Origin: a virus
Virus record (IMG/VR): IMGVR_UViG_3300035487_000976
Location: 1-22,796 of that record
Reading direction: 5' to 3' (one strand)
DNA: 22,796 nucleotides
Both the position numbers and the translations under genes were made by a program. Position 1 is the stretch's first letter; the number at the start of each line of letters is the position of its first letter. The notes under the pieces are model-generated. The model was not told the DNA's origin. It saw only the letters and a list, made by a program, of their open reading frames with translations, and did no database searches. Of the stretch, positions 10,161-20,754 are shown piece by piece.

Positions 10161-13067
10161 ATGGCACTTAGTCCTCAATTATTACAATTTAAGAGCTCAG
10201 GAGTTTACAGACTAGAATTTGATAAGTCACAAACCTCTAACATTAATGTTGAAACTCTTAGATTAGTTGTAGGTACCTCTAGGAAGGGACCTTACAATAC
10301 ACCAGTTCTTATTGATACTGTTGAATCATTTAACGATGTTTTCGGTGGAATTGATAAAAACTTAGAAAAAAAGGGAATGTTTTTCCATAGATCAGCGGTT
10401 GAAGCTCTTTCAAGAGGTCCAATCTTAGCATTGAACTTAGGAAAAATGACACCAACAACTTATGATGCTGGTGGAGTTTTCTTAGGCGGTGATACAGCTC
10501 ACTTCCAATCTGTTTCAACAAATGGATCATTAGAAGGAAACAAATCAAATCAAGATTTTGATGCTTATTCAGAGTTCTTTAACACTGAAAAGTTTTGGGT
10601 ACCATCTGATGTTAATACGTTACAAACAATTAACGGAAATAACGCAAATGAAGGCAACTTATTAAACTTTGTTAACATTAAACAACAAGCTATTACAGTA
10701 ATCACAAGACAGGCGGCTAATGTTGCTGAATTTGATATGACTGCTAGAGAATGGTATGGTGAAGGTAATGTACCTTCTTATTTAAATGAATTAGACAGAA
10801 TGTCTGATTATATGTTAGATGTATTTGTATTTAAAGGAGAATTTAACGCAACCGCTTTAAAGAACGATCCAATTTATGGAGACTACTTTGATGAAGGTGG
10901 TTTACTAGTTGAAAAATTAGCTGAATTTGCTAACTTAAGACAAATTACTCTTTTAGCACAATACACTGGTTCTATCCTTCCAGGATTTAAAGATTTAGAA
11001 GGAAGAAACTTATACATCGAATCAATCGTAAACTTAGAGGCTAGAAGAACTGGTCTTTTCTGTGCAGTTGATGAAGATGCAGTATTAGATGAAAATGGAA
11101 CTAAAGTAGATTTCGTAGGTCATGCTATTGATGCTGACGAAGATTTCGAAGTCTTATCTCACGTAGTTGGACAAGATGTAACAGTGCCACATTCAATTAC
11201 TATAGGCGCTGGATCAGTTAATGTATCTGGAGCATCTAGTAATCAATTAGCTTTTACAGGAGTTTTACAAACAGAATATAACAATGCAAATATAGATACT
11301 GATGATTTCGTAGATTCATTAATTTCTAATGAATATGCTAAAGTTGATTCTGTTAGCGCATTCACAGAGACAAACACAGGATTAATTGCTGGTCCAGTAC
11401 CTGCAGTACCACATGTTTCAGTAAATACATCAGCGCCGGGAATCACAACTACGGCAAACCTAGCTGGAGATGTTATTGACATAACAGGAATAACTGCACT
11501 TGCTGCAGCGAATTTTGCTATTGGAAAATTCTACTCAACAGATTCAGGATTAACTGGAAATGAAATTGTTAATAACACTTACGTTGGTGGTGTTTTACAA
11601 TTAACTTTTACTAGCGCAATAGCATCACCGTTGCCAACAACATGGGATCTATATACATCATTATATGTAGCTGAGGTATTTTCTATTGGAGATTTTACAA
11701 TTACATGTCTTGAAGCAGTTGCAGCACCTGGTGCTACGGTATCTTTATATCACGTAACTAATTCAAGAGTTATTGATTTAGATTTCCCATCAATAGGTGG
11801 AACATTATTATCACAAATTGCTGGAAGTACTAACTTTGATGTACAATTTGCGACTATATTAACAGCACCTGCTATATTCCCACTAAGTGTTGGAATGTAT
11901 GTTGATTCTGCAATTTCTGGTAGAATCGCGAGAATATCAAGAATTGAAAAAGTAGTTGCCACTACAGTAACTTACAAAGTATACTGTGATATCGAACCAG
12001 CATTTGCTAACAGATTAATAAAATCTTTCTCAACTGCTTCTGACTACTACAAGACACTTGTATTACCAAAAGCATCTATTGCTGTTAAATCAATAACAAA
12101 TTACTTATCAGTTCTTACTGGAGGTTATGGTTTATATGACGCACTTATCGATAAAGATATTATCGACTTTAGATATGTTGTTGATACATTTACTTCATTC
12201 TCAGACGGTAAAATTGAGACTAAGAAAAACTTATCTCAATTAGCGAAAGACAGAGAAAACGCTGCTGCTATCTTAAATGCTCCAACTGTTGCTGATTTTA
12301 AAGCATCATTTGATCCATCATTTAAAGACGCTAACGGAACATTCAAAACTCAATTTATTAAAACTGGAGGTAACTTAGATCAGAATCCTACATTCTTATA
12401 CAATCTTCCAAGTATCGCAGAAGGTGCAAACTATGCATTCTACTACGCTCCTGGATTAGTTGTAAATGATAATGGAAAAGATATAGTAGTTCCACCAGCA
12501 GCATACGTTGCTAACAATTACATCGACAAATACACTAACGCTTTACCATGGTCAATCGTGGCTGGTCCAAGACGTGGTGTGGTTTCTGGTGCAAATGTTA
12601 AAGGAGCTGAATATTCTTTTGATAAAAACGATAGAGACATCCTAGAGCCATTCGGAATTAACCCGATTGTATTTCAAAGAGGTGTTGGTCTAACAATTTT
12701 AGGAAACAAAACAGCACAACAATCTATTAAATCTGCACTTTCTTCTGCTCACGTAAGAGAAGTACTTATTTATATACAAGATGGTATGGCTAATATCCTA
12801 AAGGATTACGTATTTGAATTTAACACTGTACAAACTAGACTTGAAATTAAAACTTTAGCAGATTCTTTCATGGAATCAGTTAAACAAGATAGTGGTGTAT
12901 ATGAATTCAGAAACATAATGGATCAAACAAACAATACTAACGAAGTTATCGATAATAACATGGGAATCATTGATACTTATGTTGAACCAGTTAAAGGTTT
13001 AGAAATCGTTGTTCATAGAACTACAATTCTTAACACTGGAGAAATTCAATCAGGAAACTTAGGTTAA
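10161..13067 (+). CDS. 18: Contractile tail sheath protein, gp18-like, with large inserted domain
   Basis: The N-terminal region has sheath features (RLVVGTSRKGPYNTPVLIDT, 34-53; ESFNDVFGG, 55-63). The C-terminal region matches T4 gp18: RDILEPFGINPI (RDALYVIGVNPV in T4), VREVLIYIQDGM, FNTVQTRLEIKTLADSF and the ending GVYEFRNIMDQTNNTNEVID (T4: GIYEYRVVCDTTNNTPSVID). The protein is 968 residues against 659 in T4. The excess is mainly at about 335-635, where the sequence becomes rich in Ala, Ser, Thr, Val and Gly with repeated beta-strand patterns; after YKTLVLPKASIAV the sheath fold resumes. Such surface-exposed protrusion domains vary greatly among sheath proteins. An A-rich leader and TATATAA box precede the gene. 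Confidence 0.93.
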   Translation: MALSPQLLQFKSSGVYRLEFDKSQTSNINVETLRLVVGTSRKGPYNTPVLIDTVESFNDVFGGIDKNLEKKGMFFHRSAVEALSRGPILALNLGKMTPTTYDAGGVFLGGDTAHFQSVSTNGSLEGNKSNQDFDAYSEFFNTEKFWVPSDVNTLQTINGNNANEGNLLNFVNIKQQAITVITRQAANVAEFDMTAREWYGEGNVPSYLNELDRMSDYMLDVFVFKGEFNATALKNDPIYGDYFDEGGLLVEKLAEFANLRQITLLAQYTGSILPGFKDLEGRNLYIESIVNLEARRTGLFCAVDEDAVLDENGTKVDFVGHAIDADEDFEVLSHVVGQDVTVPHSITIGAGSVNVSGASSNQLAFTGVLQTEYNNANIDTDDFVDSLISNEYAKVDSVSAFTETNTGLIAGPVPAVPHVSVNTSAPGITTTANLAGDVIDITGITALAAANFAIGKFYSTDSGLTGNEIVNNTYVGGVLQLTFTSAIASPLPTTWDLYTSLYVAEVFSIGDFTITCLEAVAAPGATVSLYHVTNSRVIDLDFPSIGGTLLSQIAGSTNFDVQFATILTAPAIFPLSVGMYVDSAISGRIARISRIEKVVATTVTYKVYCDIEPAFANRLIKSFSTASDYYKTLVLPKASIAVKSITNYLSVLTGGYGLYDALIDKDIIDFRYVVDTFTSFSDGKIETKKNLSQLAKDRENAAAILNAPTVADFKASFDPSFKDANGTFKTQFIKTGGNLDQNPTFLYNLPSIAEGANYAFYYAPGLVVNDNGKDIVVPPAAYVANNYIDKYTNALPWSIVAGPRRGVVSGANVKGAEYSFDKNDRDILEPFGINPIVFQRGVGLTILGNKTAQQSIKSALSSAHVREVLIYIQDGMANILKDYVFEFNTVQTRLEIKTLADSFMESVKQDSGVYEFRNIMDQTNNTNEVIDNNMGIIDTYVEPVKGLEIVVHRTTILNTGEIQSGNLG

Positions 13068-13107: not shown

Positions 13108-13662
13108 ATGGCTTTACCACATTATTCACAAGATCAGACAAGTAGACAAGGTAGACAGTTTGAACCAGTTCAGGCTAACCTGTTTGAGGTAACTATACTT
13201 CCTCCAGCTGGTGTTGCAGATGCACCACTAATGCTTCAACATGTAAATTCAATCTCAGGATTAGAATTATACAAAGGAGTAGATGCAGTTGCACAAAAAT
13301 ACAAATTCTCTACTCGTTCGTACGCTGGTATGCCAAGTGAAACAGCTGTTGATATCACAATCAACTTCTCGTTAAACTTGAACGAAGCAAACCAAGCATA
13401 CTTATACAAATCAATTAGACAATGGTATAATTCACAATATGACCCACAGACTGGTGCTATGGGACTTAAGAAGGATTACGTTGGAACAATTGTAATCGTA
13501 CAGTTTAACAGAGCTGGAGATATTTATAGAACAGTAACTTTAGAAGACTGTTTCATAACTTCAGGTGCTCCGTTTACTAACGACCTTTCTTACGAATCTG
13601 CAGATCCTGCTCAATTAGAAATTGGATGGAGATGTGATACGTTTAAAGAAGTATTAGCATAA
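13108..13662 (+). CDS. 19: Tail tube protein, gp19-like
   Basis: Forms the rigid inner tube of the contractile tail. The protein is 184 residues (T4 gp19: 163). It reads F.PVQANLFEVTILPP (18-33), VNSISGLEL (46-54), RSYAGMPSETAVDITINFSL (70-89), an interior helix ANQAYLYKSIRQWYNSQYDP, and a C-terminal strand region ending GWRCDTFKEV. This strand-helix-strand layout, the motif of a distorted beta barrel with one helix, is that of gp19 and its relatives, and the gene stands immediately after the sheath gene as expected. It is followed by the strongest terminator in the left two thirds of the window, which suggests high expression of a separate transcript from its own TATATAA promoter. Confidence 0.92.
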   Translation: MALPHYSQDQTSRQGRQFEPVQANLFEVTILPPAGVADAPLMLQHVNSISGLELYKGVDAVAQKYKFSTRSYAGMPSETAVDITINFSLNLNEANQAYLYKSIRQWYNSQYDPQTGAMGLKKDYVGTIVIVQFNRAGDIYRTVTLEDCFITSGAPFTNDLSYESADPAQLEIGWRCDTFKEVLA

Positions 13663-13974: not shown

Positions 13975-14922
13975 ATGAGCAAAGACAAGGAAATTAATTT
14001 AGACGAACAATACAAAGATATTGTTGACGCTACAGAGAATTCAAGTACTAACGAGCCAGTAAATTTAGGATCTGTCAACATGGACAGATATTCTAACCAG
14101 AAAGCACAAGACGCTGATGTCCATTTAGGATACCATGCTGTTGATGCTGTAGGACTTCCATCTGGCGGAAGATTCTATCCAGACGATGCTATTATTAGTG
14201 TTAGAGCTGCTAAAGTTGGAGAGATTAGAAATTTCTCTATTGTAGATGAAAACAACTTAGTAGACATGGAGGAAAAACTAAACTACATAGTAAAGAACTG
14301 TGTTAGAATCTTTTCAGGAAAGAAGAAACTTTCTTATAAAGATATTTTAGAAGAAGATCGTTTCTATATTTTACTTTCAATTAGAGATTTAACATTCCCA
14401 GAACCTGAGAATAAATTAATCACTAAAGCAAGAGATAAAGACGGTGTAGAATTTGATGCTGAGATTTCAGCTAAATATTTCCAAATCTCAGATGTACCAG
14501 AGGATATATCTAAATACTATTCGCATGAGGCAAGAACCTTTAATATCGAAACAAAATCATTTGGTATTATAGACATGTCTCCTCCGACTATTGGTATTAT
14601 GGAGGTAATCACTGATTATATCAAAACAAAACAAATAAACGGAGGTCAATGGGATCAATCATTCCTACAAATACTTCCTTATATACAAAAAGACTGGAGA
14701 GGCTTTAATGAAAAAGCAATCTTCCAAGGTGAAATCGAATTTCAAGGATGGAACGAAAGAAAATATATGTTGGTTTATAGACTCGCTGAAAAGATGAGAG
14801 TTGGTATTAAACCCGAAATGCTAGTACAGCACGAGGATGAGGAGGTCCTCGTACCTATTAATTTTCGTGACGGACTCAAATCTCTTTTCGTTATTTCAGA
14901 TATCACTGGAGAACTTCTTTAA
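13975..14922 (+). CDS. Tail assembly chaperone / gp26-type baseplate hub-related protein (315 aa)
   Basis: The segment VGLPSGGRFYPDDAIISVRA (59-78) followed by AKVGEIRNFS has the form LPSxGxFY....I.VR....E, which I associate with the T4 gp26-type family of baseplate hub/tail chaperone proteins of T4-like phages. The first 50 residues are charged and probably disordered; the remainder is mixed alpha/beta, with a segment EFDAEISAKYFQIS...YYSHEARTFNIETKS in the middle. Position is informative: it lies between the tube protein and the tape measure, where contractile and siphovirus genomes place the G/T tail chaperone pair. It ends in CTT CTT TAA, and the following ORF overlaps in the +1 frame. 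Its identity as a chaperone rests mostly on synteny. Confidence 0.6.
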   Translation: MSKDKEINLDEQYKDIVDATENSSTNEPVNLGSVNMDRYSNQKAQDADVHLGYHAVDAVGLPSGGRFYPDDAIISVRAAKVGEIRNFSIVDENNLVDMEEKLNYIVKNCVRIFSGKKKLSYKDILEEDRFYILLSIRDLTFPEPENKLITKARDKDGVEFDAEISAKYFQISDVPEDISKYYSHEARTFNIETKSFGIIDMSPPTIGIMEVITDYIKTKQINGGQWDQSFLQILPYIQKDWRGFNEKAIFQGEIEFQGWNERKYMLVYRLAEKMRVGIKPEMLVQHEDEEVLVPINFRDGLKSLFVISDITGELL

Positions 14923-14923
14923 A
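14910..14923 (+). promoter_or_regulatory. Possible +1 programmed frameshift site, CTT TAA
   Basis: The 315-codon gene ends GAA CTT CTT TAA. The slip CTT to TTT over a TAA stop is the same type as the known bacterial RF2 site (CTT TGA). After a +1 slip the next codons are AAA ACT AAG TTC TAT ATG, in frame with the 79-residue ORF, producing a 399-residue fusion. GGAG at 14908-14911 stands upstream as a possible stimulatory sequence. Confidence 0.4.
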
Positions 14924-14935
14924 ACTAAGTTCTAT

Positions 14936-15175
14936 ATGATATACCATCTAAAGCTTCAGCCTTCAGAGATTGAAGCTTTAGATTACTACGAGTATTGGTA
15001 TTATGTTAAAGATATGGCAGATGTTCTGAAGAAACAAAATTCAGATAATTCAGATCAAACCGATCAAATGTCAGCTCAGCAAAAAGGAATGATGAGTAGT
15101 ATGAAACCTCCAAAAATGCCTGGAATGTCAGGTGGTGGAATGAAAATGCCAAAAATTTCAATGCCGAAATTCTAA
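14936..15175 (+). CDS. Second tail chaperone ORF (T/gp51-like position), 79 aa
   Basis: The frame is open from about 14837, within the preceding gene, to TAA at 15173-15175. I place the start at the ATG at 14936, 13 bases after the upstream stop, because the residues before it merely shadow the other gene; alternatively it has no own start and is made as a +1 frameshift extension. The product begins MIYHLKLQPSEIEALDYYEY, with an aromatic helix (EYWYYVKDMADVL), then a Gln/Asp/Ser linker and a striking tail of Met, Pro, Gly and Lys (KMPGMSGGGMKMPKISMPKF). A helical N-terminal part with LxPSEIEaLdYYEY resembles the T part of chaperone pairs that binds tape measure proteins. T4 gp51 is much longer (249). 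Confidence 0.55.
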   Translation: MIYHLKLQPSEIEALDYYEYWYYVKDMADVLKKQNSDNSDQTDQMSAQQKGMMSSMKPPKMPGMSGGGMKMPKISMPKF

Positions 15176-15214: not shown

Positions 15215-18200
15215 ATGGGAATGTTCAGTTCACCTTTTGAAAAATTAACTGCAGATAATCAGGGAGCCATGTCTTCGTCTATGACGAGCATGGCTACATC
15301 TGTTTCTAAAGGCGGTGGTATGTTTGAGATATTCTCTCAAATGCTAACTACACTTAAACAGATAGAAAAGAACACCAGAGTTTCTCAAAAGGGAAAGATG
15401 GGAGCTAAGGCAAAGAGCGCTGTTCTGATGGGTCTTATTGGTGGCAAAAAATTATCCGCAATTGGAAAGGGGCTTAATTTAATTGCAGATGCTCTAAAAA
15501 ACTTTGAGGAACCTGAGCAAATAAAGGCTAAGATGGAGGCTCTTACTGTAGGGCTTATGTTACTTGAAGGAGTTGGTAAATCAATATTTAAATTCGCAGG
15601 ATGGTTAGTATTAGCTACTCCATTATTAATTGTCGCAGCTGTTGTTGCTCCAATTTTAGGATTAACATTAATGATGATCTTAGGAACTCTATCGCTTGTT
15701 GGCAAATTAATGCCAAAGAAAAAGCTGTTACAGACATTTATAATGTTAAGAATGGTTGGAATTGGTATATTTATGTTCGTTTCAATGATTGCTCTTTCAG
15801 GGTTAATAGCTGTATTCGCGCTAAAGGCGCTTCCTATGGTTGCTATGATACTCTTAGGTATGGCTCTAGTTTTTAAATTAATAGACATGATGAAGATAGA
15901 TAAATCAATCCGACATGTTGCTAGAGCTCTTCTAATTGCAGGTAAGGCTATTATAATGCTAGCAGCTGCACTTGTATTATTTAGTTTAATTATAAATCTA
16001 CTAGGAGATCCATTCCAAACAGTACTACTGGTCGGAATGGCTGTTTTAGGTGTTGCAGTATTATTTATGATAATGGATAAGATGCAACTTGATAAATCAA
16101 TGAAAAAGACAGCAAGAGCACTGTTGACGGCTGGACTTTCTATTGTAATTCTTGCAGCATCTATTGTATTAGCTGAAGCGATATTAGGTATGAATGGAGA
16201 TCCCATGAAATCATTACTTATTACTGGTCTATTAATCGGTGGAACCGCGGTATTATTTAATTTAGTTGGAAAACAAGCAGTCAGCATTTTTAAAGGAGCT
16301 ATAGCTCTTATAGTCGCAGGTTTCGCACTAATAGTACTTGGTTTTGGTATATCGTTAATGGCAGAAGCAGCACCAGACATACCAACAGGTTTAGGTATAC
16401 TTGCATTAATCACTGGAATAGGAGTTGTAATGGGAGTTGCTGGTTTAGCAGCTGGATTTATATCGCTCGGTGCCGCATCGATGATAATCGCAGGTATTGC
16501 ACTTCTCGTGCTAGCACCTGGGGTATCGAAAATGGCTGAAACCACAAAGGGTATGTCTACAGAAAATGTTAAAGTCATGGCACTAGTAATTGGAGCTATA
16601 GCAGCAACATTCGCAGCAGCTGGTATTTTAACAATACCTATAGCATTAGGTGCAGGCGCATTAGTAATAGCCGGTATCGCCTTAATCAAAATTGGAAAGG
16701 GATTAGCATCAATGAATACGGCACTACAAGGAACCGATGGTATTCTTGCAGATTCAGGACATGTTACAGAATCTACATTTGGATTCGGTGGTGGTAGAAT
16801 GATGTCAAAAATGGAATACGCTATTCAATCTGTAGGTTATTCATTTGTAATGGCTCCTTGGACCGCAGCTGGAATTGCTATTGGCGTACTCGCTTTAAGA
16901 GATGCTGGTAAGGTTCTTGTTTCAATTGGTATGGGAATTCAACAATTCCAAAAAATAGCAGCAACTGCTGACTTATCTAAATTAGGAGAGAATGTTAACA
17001 TAATAGTAGATACATTATCAACGACTTTTGCGAAAGTAGGAAGACAAATGAAAGGTGGTAAGACCAGTTTAATGAGCGCGGTCTTTGGAACCGGCGGATC
17101 CAATGCAGTAGCTGATGGTATTTCAGCAGTAATGGGTATGGGAGACGCTTTAACAGGGATAGCAGTTGGTTTTCAAAACATGGCAAACCTTAAGTTCCCT
17201 ACTAAATACGATAAAAACGGTAAACCAATAGAATTTGAAACAATGTCATCTGACGCACCTGAAAAGGTAGCAAAGAACGCAGGAATAATAACAAGCGTGC
17301 TTGCTGAGGTATTCGGAAGAATAGGCTTAAAATACCCAGGTGGTAAAAGATCTCTATTTTCTATAAGTTCATCACCAGTATCTGATGGTATTTCTGCAGT
17401 ACAGGGAATGGGAGACGCTTTAACAGGAATTGCATTAGGATTCCAAGCAATGGCAAACCTTAAGTTCCCTACTAAATACGATAAAGAAGGAAAACCAATA
17501 GAATTTGAAACAGTAGATATCCCGGGAGCTGTTAAGAAGGTATCAGCAAATATGACAATGATTCTCTTAGGTGAGAATGGATCCGGAGGTTTAGTAGGCA
17601 TGTTATCTAATATAGGTAAAGCCGGAGGACCAGATGGTGGATTGTTTGGTAGTACAGATTACGAAAAAGGAAAGGAAATGATCCAAGGAATTGGTACTCC
17701 TATTAAAGATCTTGCAGAGGGTGTCAAAAACATGGCAGAACTTAGATTTGCAAATAAGTGGGATAAAGACGGTAAAGCAATCGGTTGGGTTTCTCATACT
17801 GGAATGGCAGCTAGTCTTAAAAAGGTAGAAGAAAATATTAAACAAATCTTATTAGGTAGTGATGGTTCTGGAGGTCTTGTAGGTATCTTTAAAAAACTAG
17901 GAGGAGAAGATGATGGTGGTTGGTTCTCAGCATCATCAATAGAAAAAGGAGCTGACATCGCTAAAATGATATCAAAACCTATAAAGGATATAGCCAGCGC
18001 AGCACAAGAATTAATGTCTGATAAATGGACACCAGAAGGAGCATCTGCCAGAATTGGAGCAATTATAGGAGCACTTGCAAAGGGTGAACAAACTCTTGCC
18101 GCTGGAGGATTATTTGGAAAGGGTTCAAATCCATTAGAAGAAACTGCAAAATTCTTAAAAGCAATTGCAGAACAGGTTGATCCATTTGAAAAGTTTACTC

Positions 18201-18592
18201 AATCATTTGGTAACTATGTTGAAGACTTTGTAAAATATAAAGACGCCATTAACGCGTTTGATCCAGAAAAATTAGAATTGACAACTGAAATGTTTGCAGG
18301 ACTTACACATCTTTCTAAAACTGAAGATGCTATAAATAATATGTCTGAACAACTAGCAGCTGCAATTTATAAACTTGCTGAAATGATTGAATCTACTGGA
18401 GGAGGTACAAGTACTGAAGGTGCTACTAAACCTGCAGGAGCTAGCCCAGCATTTGATGCACCGAAATCTGGAGGTGGAGAAGCCAAATCTGGAGGAGATA
18501 TGTCTGCTGTCGTAAAAGCTATCCAATTATTAGAATCTAGATTAGACGAACCCCTTATTGTTAAGAGCGGATCTAAGAGTTGGTTTAATTAA
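15215..18592 (+). CDS. Tape measure-like protein, 1125 aa, hydrophobic and repetitive
   Basis: Largest gene of the window, directly after the presumed tail chaperones, which is where the tape measure gene lies. Residues 125-500 contain many hydrophobic helices rich in Gly, Ala, Ile and Leu (for example ATPLLIVAAVVAPILGL, 134-150), built from diverged units of about 65 residues: DKSIRHVARALL and DKSMKKTARALL recur at 229 and 294. Residues 590-940 hold about four units of 90-95 residues; two are nearly identical (634-676 and 724-766), and two diverged (around 816 and 911). The C-terminus is a Gly/Ser/Pro linker and a short helix. T4 gp29 is 590 residues. The start used is the in-frame ATG at 15215; ATG at 15211 is out of frame. 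A membrane-interacting protein of other function is the alternative. Confidence 0.72.
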   Translation: MGMFSSPFEKLTADNQGAMSSSMTSMATSVSKGGGMFEIFSQMLTTLKQIEKNTRVSQKGKMGAKAKSAVLMGLIGGKKLSAIGKGLNLIADALKNFEEPEQIKAKMEALTVGLMLLEGVGKSIFKFAGWLVLATPLLIVAAVVAPILGLTLMMILGTLSLVGKLMPKKKLLQTFIMLRMVGIGIFMFVSMIALSGLIAVFALKALPMVAMILLGMALVFKLIDMMKIDKSIRHVARALLIAGKAIIMLAAALVLFSLIINLLGDPFQTVLLVGMAVLGVAVLFMIMDKMQLDKSMKKTARALLTAGLSIVILAASIVLAEAILGMNGDPMKSLLITGLLIGGTAVLFNLVGKQAVSIFKGAIALIVAGFALIVLGFGISLMAEAAPDIPTGLGILALITGIGVVMGVAGLAAGFISLGAASMIIAGIALLVLAPGVSKMAETTKGMSTENVKVMALVIGAIAATFAAAGILTIPIALGAGALVIAGIALIKIGKGLASMNTALQGTDGILADSGHVTESTFGFGGGRMMSKMEYAIQSVGYSFVMAPWTAAGIAIGVLALRDAGKVLVSIGMGIQQFQKIAATADLSKLGENVNIIVDTLSTTFAKVGRQMKGGKTSLMSAVFGTGGSNAVADGISAVMGMGDALTGIAVGFQNMANLKFPTKYDKNGKPIEFETMSSDAPEKVAKNAGIITSVLAEVFGRIGLKYPGGKRSLFSISSSPVSDGISAVQGMGDALTGIALGFQAMANLKFPTKYDKEGKPIEFETVDIPGAVKKVSANMTMILLGENGSGGLVGMLSNIGKAGGPDGGLFGSTDYEKGKEMIQGIGTPIKDLAEGVKNMAELRFANKWDKDGKAIGWVSHTGMAASLKKVEENIKQILLGSDGSGGLVGIFKKLGGEDDGGWFSASSIEKGADIAKMISKPIKDIASAAQELMSDKWTPEGASARIGAIIGALAKGEQTLAAGGLFGKGSNPLEETAKFLKAIAEQVDPFEKFTQSFGNYVEDFVKYKDAINAFDPEKLELTTEMFAGLTHLSKTEDAINNMSEQLAAAIYKLAEMIESTGGGTSTEGATKPAGASPAFDAPKSGGGEAKSGGDMSAVVKAIQLLESRLDEPLIVKSGSKSWFN
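17114..17242 (+). repeat. Direct repeat copy 1 inside tape measure-like gene
   Basis: Encodes DGISAV.GMGDALTGIA and MANLKFPTKYDK (residues 634-676). The stretch gcaaaccttaagttccctac and the following bases are identical to copy 2 270 bases downstream, with other differences mostly synonymous or conservative. Confidence 0.85.
17384..17512 (+). repeat. Direct repeat copy 2 inside tape measure-like gene
   Basis: Second copy (residues 724-766) at a spacing of 270 bases, exactly 90 codons, from copy 1. Nucleotide identity over long runs suggests a recent duplication or ongoing conversion. Confidence 0.85.
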
Positions 18593-19160: not shown

Positions 19161-19766
19161 ATGAAGGTTACGAAAAAATTACAAAAGTTTATTGATTCAA
19201 TATCTACAATCGGAGATAGTAACATACCAGATGATGATGGTAAAATCTATTACTCAAACGTAGATGGTTCTTACTTAACTAGAGTTGGAGTGGAAAACTC
19301 ATTAAAGTTCTTATTTAAATATGGAATAAGTGAACAAATCCAAGCTAGAAAAGATAGTGGGGTTGCTAGTATTGGATTCAATCCAATCGAACAAAAATGG
19401 TATGGGTGGTCACATAGAGCACTATATGGTTTTGGTATTGGTAGTGAATGTAAGAAAGGGAATTGTGGATATTCAGCATCTAATAAAATAGATTTTGCAG
19501 AAGAAAACCTAAATTGGTATGGTGATAATGATATGGGTGACACTTATAAAATAAATGCTACTGTAAAAGAACATACAGAAGCTGGTGTTTTGGGGGTTTT
19601 GGTTGAATACGATTATGATAATAGAGTACCTAATGAGGCAACGAGAGGAACTCATAGAACAGAATTTGAACCATATCCAAAAAAGTTTGGTAAAGGTGAG
19701 TGGATTGCAAACACTTTAGAAGATGCAAAGCAAATGGCAATTGATTTCTCAGATGGAGTATCTTAA
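19161..19766 (+). CDS. Conserved phage protein of unknown function, 201 aa
   Basis: The centre QKWYGWSHRALYGFGIGSEC (80-99) is a Trp/Gly-rich motif of a kind I recall from hypothetical proteins of several large phages; no function is established to my knowledge. It is followed by a pair of cysteines (SECKKGNCGY). The C-terminus GKGEWIANTLEDAKQMAIDF (177-196) is a helical conserved end. No membrane helix or catalytic motif is obvious, and the fold appears alpha/beta with many charged loops. The leader attaaattaaacaaaatg is the typical A-rich type, and the same leader precedes the thioredoxin gene 25 bases downstream. Confidence 0.8.
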   Translation: MKVTKKLQKFIDSISTIGDSNIPDDDGKIYYSNVDGSYLTRVGVENSLKFLFKYGISEQIQARKDSGVASIGFNPIEQKWYGWSHRALYGFGIGSECKKGNCGYSASNKIDFAEENLNWYGDNDMGDTYKINATVKEHTEAGVLGVLVEYDYDNRVPNEATRGTHRTEFEPYPKKFGKGEWIANTLEDAKQMAIDFSDGVS

Positions 19767-19791: not shown

Positions 19792-20046
19792 ATGAAATAT
19801 CTTTACTTTAGCGCACCATGGTGCGGACCTTGTAGAATGTTAGGTCCACTTATGAATAAAGTTGCAGAACAGGTAACTGTTGAAAAGCACAACATTGATG
19901 AAAACTCAGAATTAGCACAGCAGTATTTCGTAAGAAGTATTCCAACAGTAGTTCTTGTAAATTCCGAAGGAAAAGAACAAGAAAGATTTGTTGGCGTTAA
20001 AGATGAGAAGTTTTACCTTGATAAAATGGCAGAATATGATATCTAG
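19792..20046 (+). CDS. Thioredoxin-like protein (WCGPC)
   Basis: Disulfide oxidoreductase. The active site is APWCGPCRM (8-16) with C11 and C14, and the conserved cis-proline is P51 in RSIPTVVLV. The strand order MKYLYFSAPW, VEKHNIDEN, TVVLVN, then ERFVGV fits a thioredoxin fold that lacks the first strand and helix; at 84 residues it is shorter than a bacterial thioredoxin (about 105) and similar to phage and archaeal mini-thioredoxins. No signal peptide, so cytoplasmic. It may reduce phage or host ribonucleotide reductase or other redox proteins, but no such partner is in the window. The end overlaps the next gene by 11 bases. Confidence 0.92.
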   Translation: MKYLYFSAPWCGPCRMLGPLMNKVAEQVTVEKHNIDENSELAQQYFVRSIPTVVLVNSEGKEQERFVGVKDEKFYLDKMAEYDI

Positions 20047-20326
20047 AAATTCTATAGTAGAAAGATTATTAGACCAAGGTCACATTGTAATAGTATGTGC
20101 TGATAGAATCCTAAATAAGAAGGGTGAATATCTACAAGACATTGAAGATTTACATAGAGATGGTCCAATATCAACAAGTGAAGCTGTATTGTTACTCAGT
20201 GAAGATACTTCAGAATCAATAAATCCATACATACAACAACCAATGTATGTACCTCCAATTCAATGGGATCAAGATCAGACTGGATCACCACCACCAATTT
20301 ATTGTCAAACAACAACATTAGATTAA
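20036..20326 (+). CDS. Hypothetical protein, 96 aa
   Basis: I chose the ATG at 20036, which overlaps the thioredoxin stop by 11 bases, over an in-frame upstream ATG at 19988 buried in the thioredoxin gene. The product has an alpha/beta-like N-terminal half (SIVERLLDQGHIVIVCADRI) and a Pro/Gln-rich C-terminal half (YVPPIQWDQDQ, GSPPPIYC) likely to be extended. No motif recognised. It overlaps the nuclease gene by one base (TAATG), so all three genes are probably co-translated. Confidence 0.68.
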   Translation: MISRNSIVERLLDQGHIVIVCADRILNKKGEYLQDIEDLHRDGPISTSEAVLLLSEDTSESINPYIQQPMYVPPIQWDQDQTGSPPPIYCQTTTLD

Positions 20327-20754
20327 TGTATCAATATAAGGCAAGGGTAAATAGAGTAATTGACGGAGATTCGGTGGTTTTAGATATCGATTTAGGTTTT
20401 GATATGTGGATGAATAATCAAAATATCAGAATTTATGGAATTGACACACCAGAATGCAGAACTAGAGATCTTGATGAAAAAGCAAGAGGGTTTTTAGCAA
20501 AAGAACATGTTGAGAATCTCTTACCAGTTGGAGAAGAAGTCGTTATAGATACTTATAAAGATAGGGCTGGTAAATTTGGAAGAATTCTGGGTAAAATAAC
20601 AAATATCGAAGGAATTGACGTTGGACAATCATTATTAGATGTAAATTTCGCAGTGGCATATTATGGTCAATCTAAGGATGAGATTAAACAACAACATTTA
20701 GATAATAGAGAAATATTAATATTAGAAGAAAGATTTAGACCAGATGCAGATTAA
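20326..20754 (+). CDS. Staphylococcal-type nuclease (SNase/thermonuclease domain)
   Basis: Calcium-dependent nuclease of the OB fold. The conserved features are VNRVIDGDSVVLDIDLGF (8-25) with acidic metal ligands, NIRIYGIDTPECR (33-45) with R35, D40 and E43, and DRAGKFGRILGKI (79-91) with R86. These correspond to the catalytic arginines and glutamate (R35, E43, R87) of the Staphylococcus aureus enzyme, so it is probably active. I place the start at MYQYKARV at 20326, overlapping the upstream stop; the open frame extends 21 codons further upstream but those codons shadow the previous gene. No signal peptide, so an intracellular role (host DNA breakdown, repair or packaging) is more likely than secretion. 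Ends with 11 bases overlap into the epimerase. Confidence 0.88.
   Translation: MYQYKARVNRVIDGDSVVLDIDLGFDMWMNNQNIRIYGIDTPECRTRDLDEKARGFLAKEHVENLLPVGEEVVIDTYKDRAGKFGRILGKITNIEGIDVGQSLLDVNFAVAYYGQSKDEIKQQHLDNREILILEERFRPDAD

Follow-up and report, generated by a model that had tools for sequence, protein, structure and literature searches.

Frameshifted tail assembly chaperones are conserved in long-tailed phages ‘except T4’, and the shifts are -1, -2 or +1 in different phages (PMC5009743). A 22.8-kb viral fragment (IMG/VR record IMGVR_UViG_3300035487_000976, 22,796 nucleotides, referred to here as the window) raises the question of where, and by what means, the second member of such a pair is entered when it lies in the +1 frame. 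The original prediction for this locus described a 315-codon ORF (A) ending in CTT CTT TAA, an upstream GGAG and an overlapping +1 ORF, and proposed that the two ORFs are tail chaperones located between tube and tape measure genes and joined by a +1 frameshift at CTT TAA, as in the bacterial RF2 gene (prfB). All of these elements are present as described: the +1 ORF (14837-15175) is open already 95 nt before the ORF A stop, and a fusion read through CTT TAA would indeed have 399 residues. We collected more than 200 homologous loci, annotated phages included; the clade to which the window belongs comprises 61 unique junctions, and the relatives covered share as little as about 45% identity in A. 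The features discussed below are as follows.

10161-13067: sheath gene, 5′ of the tube gene
13108-13662, + strand: tail tube protein (phrog_45 tail tube, E 3e-8; phrog_4542)
13975-14922, + strand: ORF A, 315 codons, encoding the 315-aa short product; its end reads GGA GAA CTT CTT TAA
14875-14889, + strand: switch interval, CTC AAA TCT CTT TTC, frame-0 codons 301-305 (L K S L F)
14888-15175, + strand: segment B in the +1 frame, SLFQISLENFF KTKFYM...MPKF, about 95 aa, a predicted gp51-type C-terminal extension
14890-14919, + strand: dual-coding overlap, VISDITGELL in frame 0 and LFQISLENFF in +1
14908-14911, + strand: GGAG, encoding Gly-Glu, not conserved as a signal (49/61)
14917-14922, + strand: CTT TAA, stop of the short product, conserved in 61/61, with a slip-site role that is not needed
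15215-18592, + strand: tape-measure-like protein, 1125 aa, recognised by size, position and hydropathy (hydrophobic segments within residues 123-500)

The A/B pair is thus placed between the tube gene and a tape-measure-like gene, the latter identified by size and hydropathy only, since PHROG and Pfam profile searches gave no family match for its product; this is the usual site of tail assembly chaperones. ORF A matches phrog_36717 (E 2e-24), and its homologues in PAU and LR756500 match PF12322 (T4_baseplate) above the cut-off (E 2.7e-9 and 7.6e-8), a family for which window ORF A itself gave no match over the cut-off. The +1 ORF matches phrog_634, which represents the C-terminal part of T4 gp51 (E 1.1e-4), over residues 15-78, an alignment that starts before the CTT TAA stop. 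T4 gp26 and T4 gp51, chaperones of hub assembly, are paralogues, both found in phrog_150 and PF12322. Judged by these profiles, A is a putative T4 gp26-type chaperone (TAC-N/gpG-like) and B is homologous to the gp51 C-terminus, whereas hhalign comparison with the single T4 gp26 and gp51 sequences gave nothing for B and a weak match of A to gp26. The modelled long form resembles PAU gp93, pT24, PTm1 and T4-like baseplate hub proteins in a fold search, and a PDB fold search returned nothing. In the AlphaFold model of the long form the A part is confident, but the B part lies mostly at pLDDT 50-68, with its C-terminus below 50, and we therefore make no structural claim on B. The tube match, the 1125-aa tape-measure-like gene and the gp26/gp51 homology agree with the proposed chaperone pair, and a tail assembly chaperone function for A/B is putatively assigned by analogy.

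The position at which B begins to be read as protein is recorded in the pattern of substitution. Codon-position entropy indicates frame-0 wobble freedom up to a GGN codon at nt -46 from the stop (14874); from nt -30, variation falls where the first codon position of frame 0 coincides with the third of +1 (TCN, TTR, TTY, ATH, TCN, encoding S L F I S), the first site fully synonymous in +1 being nt 14890 (TCN). When substitutions were inferred on a tree of 60 window-clade sequences, 35 of the 56 changes at nt -30 to -1 proved synonymous in +1 versus 11 of 56 in frame 0, and the pattern was reversed at nt -120 to -46 (58 of 386 in +1, 215 of 386 in frame 0; Fisher p about 9e-13 for the contrast), the +1 frame 5′ of nt -46 not being selected. 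By this test the +1 frame is under purifying, protein-level selection over the 30 nt before CTT TAA, and ribosomes must therefore enter it at about 14875-14889; the comparison bounds the frame switch within the 15-nt interval from nt -45 to nt -31. A second, independent clade (clade 2, 53 sequences in the tree) has the same layout, and there too the overlap shows strong suppression of change (26 changes across 45 nt), with 12 changes synonymous in +1 versus 5 in frame 0.

The gp51 homology can also be used to compare points of entry. With an HMM built from the gp51 tails of nine T4-superfamily phages and T4 gp51, a fusion of the window ORFs at the early site scores 15.6 bits and one at CTT TAA 5.9 bits, and throughout the window clade (61/61) fusion at TTC outscores fusion at CTT TAA (mean 21.0 vs 10.9 bits). 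Scores in clade 2 are low and do not favour the early site (6.4 for the early fusion vs 9.1 bits). In the aligned gp51 block, KVP40 reads ...SLEEYYKENFAM... and the window ...SLENFFKTKFYM....

CTT TAA, with its frame-0 stop, and the overlapping +1 ORF are kept in 61 of 61 unique window-clade junctions, which on this comparison is more than chance. The conservation among relatives to which the original prediction looked is thus complete in the window clade but fails for CTT TAA in clade 2, where the stop context is almost always AAA GAA TAA, without a slippery stop. CTT TAA is fixed by the joint demand for Leu-stop in frame 0 and Phe-Phe-Lys in +1; as dual coding accounts for it, a slip function is not needed there.

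We therefore favour, with a probability of roughly 0.78, the reading that A/B is a gp26/gp51-type chaperone gene whose long form would be produced by a net +1 (or -2) shift within 14875-14889. Most ribosomes would remain in frame 0 through to TAA 14920 and yield the 315-residue short form, and some would undergo a net +1 shift (by slipping +1 or -2) inside CTC AAA TCT CTT TTC, most probably at CTT_TTC, and continue in the +1 frame to 15175, yielding a long form of 399-400 residues with the junction ...INFRDGLKSL(F)SLFQISLENFFKTKFYM.... The tryptic junction peptide expected from the window sequence would be SLFSLFQISLENFFK for -2 and SLSLFQISLENFFK for +1 at CTT. On the model of lambda gpG/gpGT, coating of the tape measure would fall to the short form and recruitment of the tube protein to the long one; a pair of this type would also have its two products made at a fixed ratio. 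The originally predicted joining of A and B thus stands as regards its net +1 kind but not as regards CTT TAA as its site, the +1 frame being selected further upstream.

A shift of the prfB type would require peptidyl-tRNA-Leu to move from CTT to TTT at the stop, joining GELL to KTKFYM. The invariance of CTT TAA (61/61), the GGAG upstream of it in 49 of 61 junctions, and the presence before a +1 ORF of CTT TAA in L224 and of TTT TAA in Lak phages are all compatible with such an event, but +1 selection is already evident 5′ of the stop, the resulting fusion lacks LFQISLENFF, the part that matches gp51 and raises the score given above, and the typical clade 2 stop context offers no such site. 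The prfB features compared are CTT followed by TGA C and a Shine-Dalgarno sequence 3 nt upstream (PMC12421855). The window shares with prfB the CTTT tetranucleotide (at both CTT_TTC and CTT_TAA), but its stop is TAA, the next base is G or A (53 and 8 of the 61 junctions, never C), and its GGAG, missing in 12 of 61, lies 5 nt rather than 3 nt away; nor is it autoregulatory, and its favoured site consists of sense codons. The likeness to RF2 accordingly breaks down at the stop codon, the next base, the GGAG spacing and the shift site, CTT TAA is rejected as the slip site on the frame of selection, and we consider this explanation very improbable.

Translationally coupled initiation of B inside A, at GTG 14867, ATG 14837 or ATG 14936, would account for a second product without any shift, and the original prediction had offered the last of these codons, which is present and would give 79 residues, as its alternative. 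Most window-clade members have a GTG at nt -53 or -50, nearly all of clade 2 has an ATG at nt -26, and Flavobacterium phage MaF61 (L005) has ATG ATG shortly before the stop. However, frame-0 Arg-Asp or Gly-Gly codons create the GTG incidentally, selection does not act on +1 upstream of nt -46, only 7 of 61 window-clade junctions retain ATG 14936 (nt +16 relative to the stop), and 8 of 122 unique junctions, from divergent lineages (L023, L092, L105, L002, L109, L112, L097 and L005), have no ATG, GTG or TTG in +1 upstream of nt -30. None of the starts at 14936, 14867 and 14837 is conserved, and they are rejected on that ground; independent initiation as a whole is unlikely. Transcriptional slippage at TTTT, generating a mixed mRNA population, would draw on the T run present at the switch, but such slippage generally requires longer runs, and this one has four Ts only and is interrupted in L104-L107, leaving the explanation with very little credit. 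At the two ATGs of MaF61 (3950-3970 of L005), B is annotated as a separate gene with an 8-nt overlap, yet the conserved +1 block begins further upstream.

Sequence comparison establishes the homology, the frame of selection, the switch interval and the absence of a conserved start. The second ORF overlaps the first in another frame and lacks a conserved start, as in G/GT-type pairs, and A/B is well supported as a frameshifted pair, with a net shift of +1 (or -2) that falls within a dual-coding overlap and would be unusual among tail assembly chaperones. Ribosomal frameshifting is the inferred cause of the switch, with a putative slip codon, direction and efficiency.

CTT_TTC is favoured as the slip pair because it comprises the codons at which relatives are predicted to slip, and because a +1 slip could use CTTT and a -2 slip could move TTC to TTT and CTT to CTC. 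The first codon of the pair varies (CTT, ATT and TTA are all found), and TTTTC is missing in L104-L107 (TTA TTC), L219 and pT24; moreover, dual coding by itself requires NTT TTC, for LF in frame 0 and FS in +1, and its conservation is therefore no proof of slippage. 5′ of this pair, xTC AAA (14875-14880) has C as the third base in 59 of 61 window-clade junctions, against a codon background in which ATC accounts for 22% of Ile codons and CTC for 1% of Leu codons, and it recurs in PAU, pT24, Lak and L101; it could act as a stimulator or mark the true site of slippage. We also weighed slippage at AAA (xTC AAA N), a less likely reading because it matches neither the AAG variants nor clade 2. Given the variation among CTT, ATT and TTA and the conserved xTC AAA, the shift may be +1 or -2. 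A -2 shift, as in phage Mu and arterivirus nsp2TF, reaches the same frame as B, and TTC (Phe) in the A site could re-pair on TTT, but ATT variants re-pair poorly in the P site, and no stimulator was identified; RNAalifold found no conserved RNA structure around the site in either clade.

A shift at homologous codons is suggested for other members of the T4 superfamily. In nine of the nine phages tested (L237-L245: Syn9, S-PM2, S-SSM7, S-CRM01, Ci1, Desulfovibrio phage 7757, KVP40, S-MbCM6 and YB07), the end of gp26 carries GLxxFF and T_TTT_TTC, with the gp51 block next, in the -1 frame; in Desulfovibrio phage 7757 the gp51 frame lacks any start codon. The position of T_TTT_TTC is homologous to the window switch interval (equivalent GLxxFF codons), and it is a candidate site for -1 frameshifting of these chaperones. 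The window and the cyanophages, KVP40, Ci1, YB07 and Desulfovibrio phage 7757 alike have gp26 followed by a short overlapping gp51, with the switch at GLxxFF, but these phages have T_TTT_TTC with a frame-0 stop within 1-2 codons, whereas the window has CTT_TTC with a stop ten codons later. The canonical -1 heptamer, X_XXY_YYZ, is found only in the T4-superfamily relatives and not at the window locus, where B lies in +1. Short gp51 proteins in cyanophages and a marine vibriophage were noted by Sullivan et al. 2010 (PMC3037559), apparently without an explanation. In Lak phages and one relative (L093, L094, L222-L224), A ends in TTT TAA or CTT TAA with a +1 continuation, and the gp51-like block is displaced downstream by about 30-50 residues; a true shifty-stop +1 event may occur at the stops of these few sequences.

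Like lambda gpG/gpGT, A/B consists of overlapping ORFs near tube and tape measure genes, with a short product and a C-terminally extended long one, but lambda shifts by -1, and the window pair putatively by a net +1 (or -2), after which about 30 nt are dual-coding. T4 has its short (gp26) and long (gp51) forms in two paralogous genes, where the window has one locus and two frames. The chaperone role in T4-like phages appears to have been published already, Vladimirov, Gautam and Davidson having reportedly described such chaperones in 2022. For T4-like phages with separate short and long chaperone genes, the PRFect paper (PMC10885494) refers to Vladimirov et al. 2022. No report of net +1/-2 chaperone recoding was found in the literature searched, which mostly excluded subscription papers, and its novelty is provisional.

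The comparison suggests that T4 relatives frameshift at a homologous site, in two directions, and that T4 is the exception by gene duplication. Whether GGN xTC AAA NNT NTT TTC constitutes a distinct signal for a +1 or -2 shift at sense codons, one that involves neither a stop nor a canonical heptamer, leads into a selected dual-coding tract and arose at codons where other T4-superfamily phages use -1, is evenly balanced in our view; gp26/gp51 would then be one family with three routes to the long form (-1, +1/-2, duplication). The relatives' hosts are Bacteroidota, whose ribosomes largely ignore Shine-Dalgarno sequences, and in phages of this kind a +1/-2 shift independent of a stop would offer a useful recoding model; ribosomes of F. 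johnsoniae generally fail to recognise such sequences, although prfB frameshifting persists there (PMC8710568). Annotation is corrected in PAU, PTm1, MA9V-2 and S-MbCM6, where B was truncated or missed.

The relatives of the window are large myoviruses that infect Prevotella, Tenacibaculum, Chryseobacterium, Flavobacterium and Sphingomonas, together with 460-735 kb metagenomic phages, and because of these hosts a Bacteroidota host is likely for the window phage as well. MA9V-2, used as a query against viral contigs, found no relatives. In Chryseobacterium phage MA9V-1 the chaperone pair is separated from the large tail gene by a glycoside hydrolase family 16 gene, which is absent from that position in MA9V-2 (L004/L099 = MA9V-1/2). 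Downstream of the tape-measure-like gene, the window encodes a thioredoxin-domain protein (19792-20046) and an SNase-type endonuclease (20263-20754; PF00565, phrog_452), as well as a 201-aa protein (19161-19766) that matches Tad6, an inhibitor of type I Thoeris (PF25188, E 3.7e-37), and is likely, on this match, to be an anti-defence gene product.
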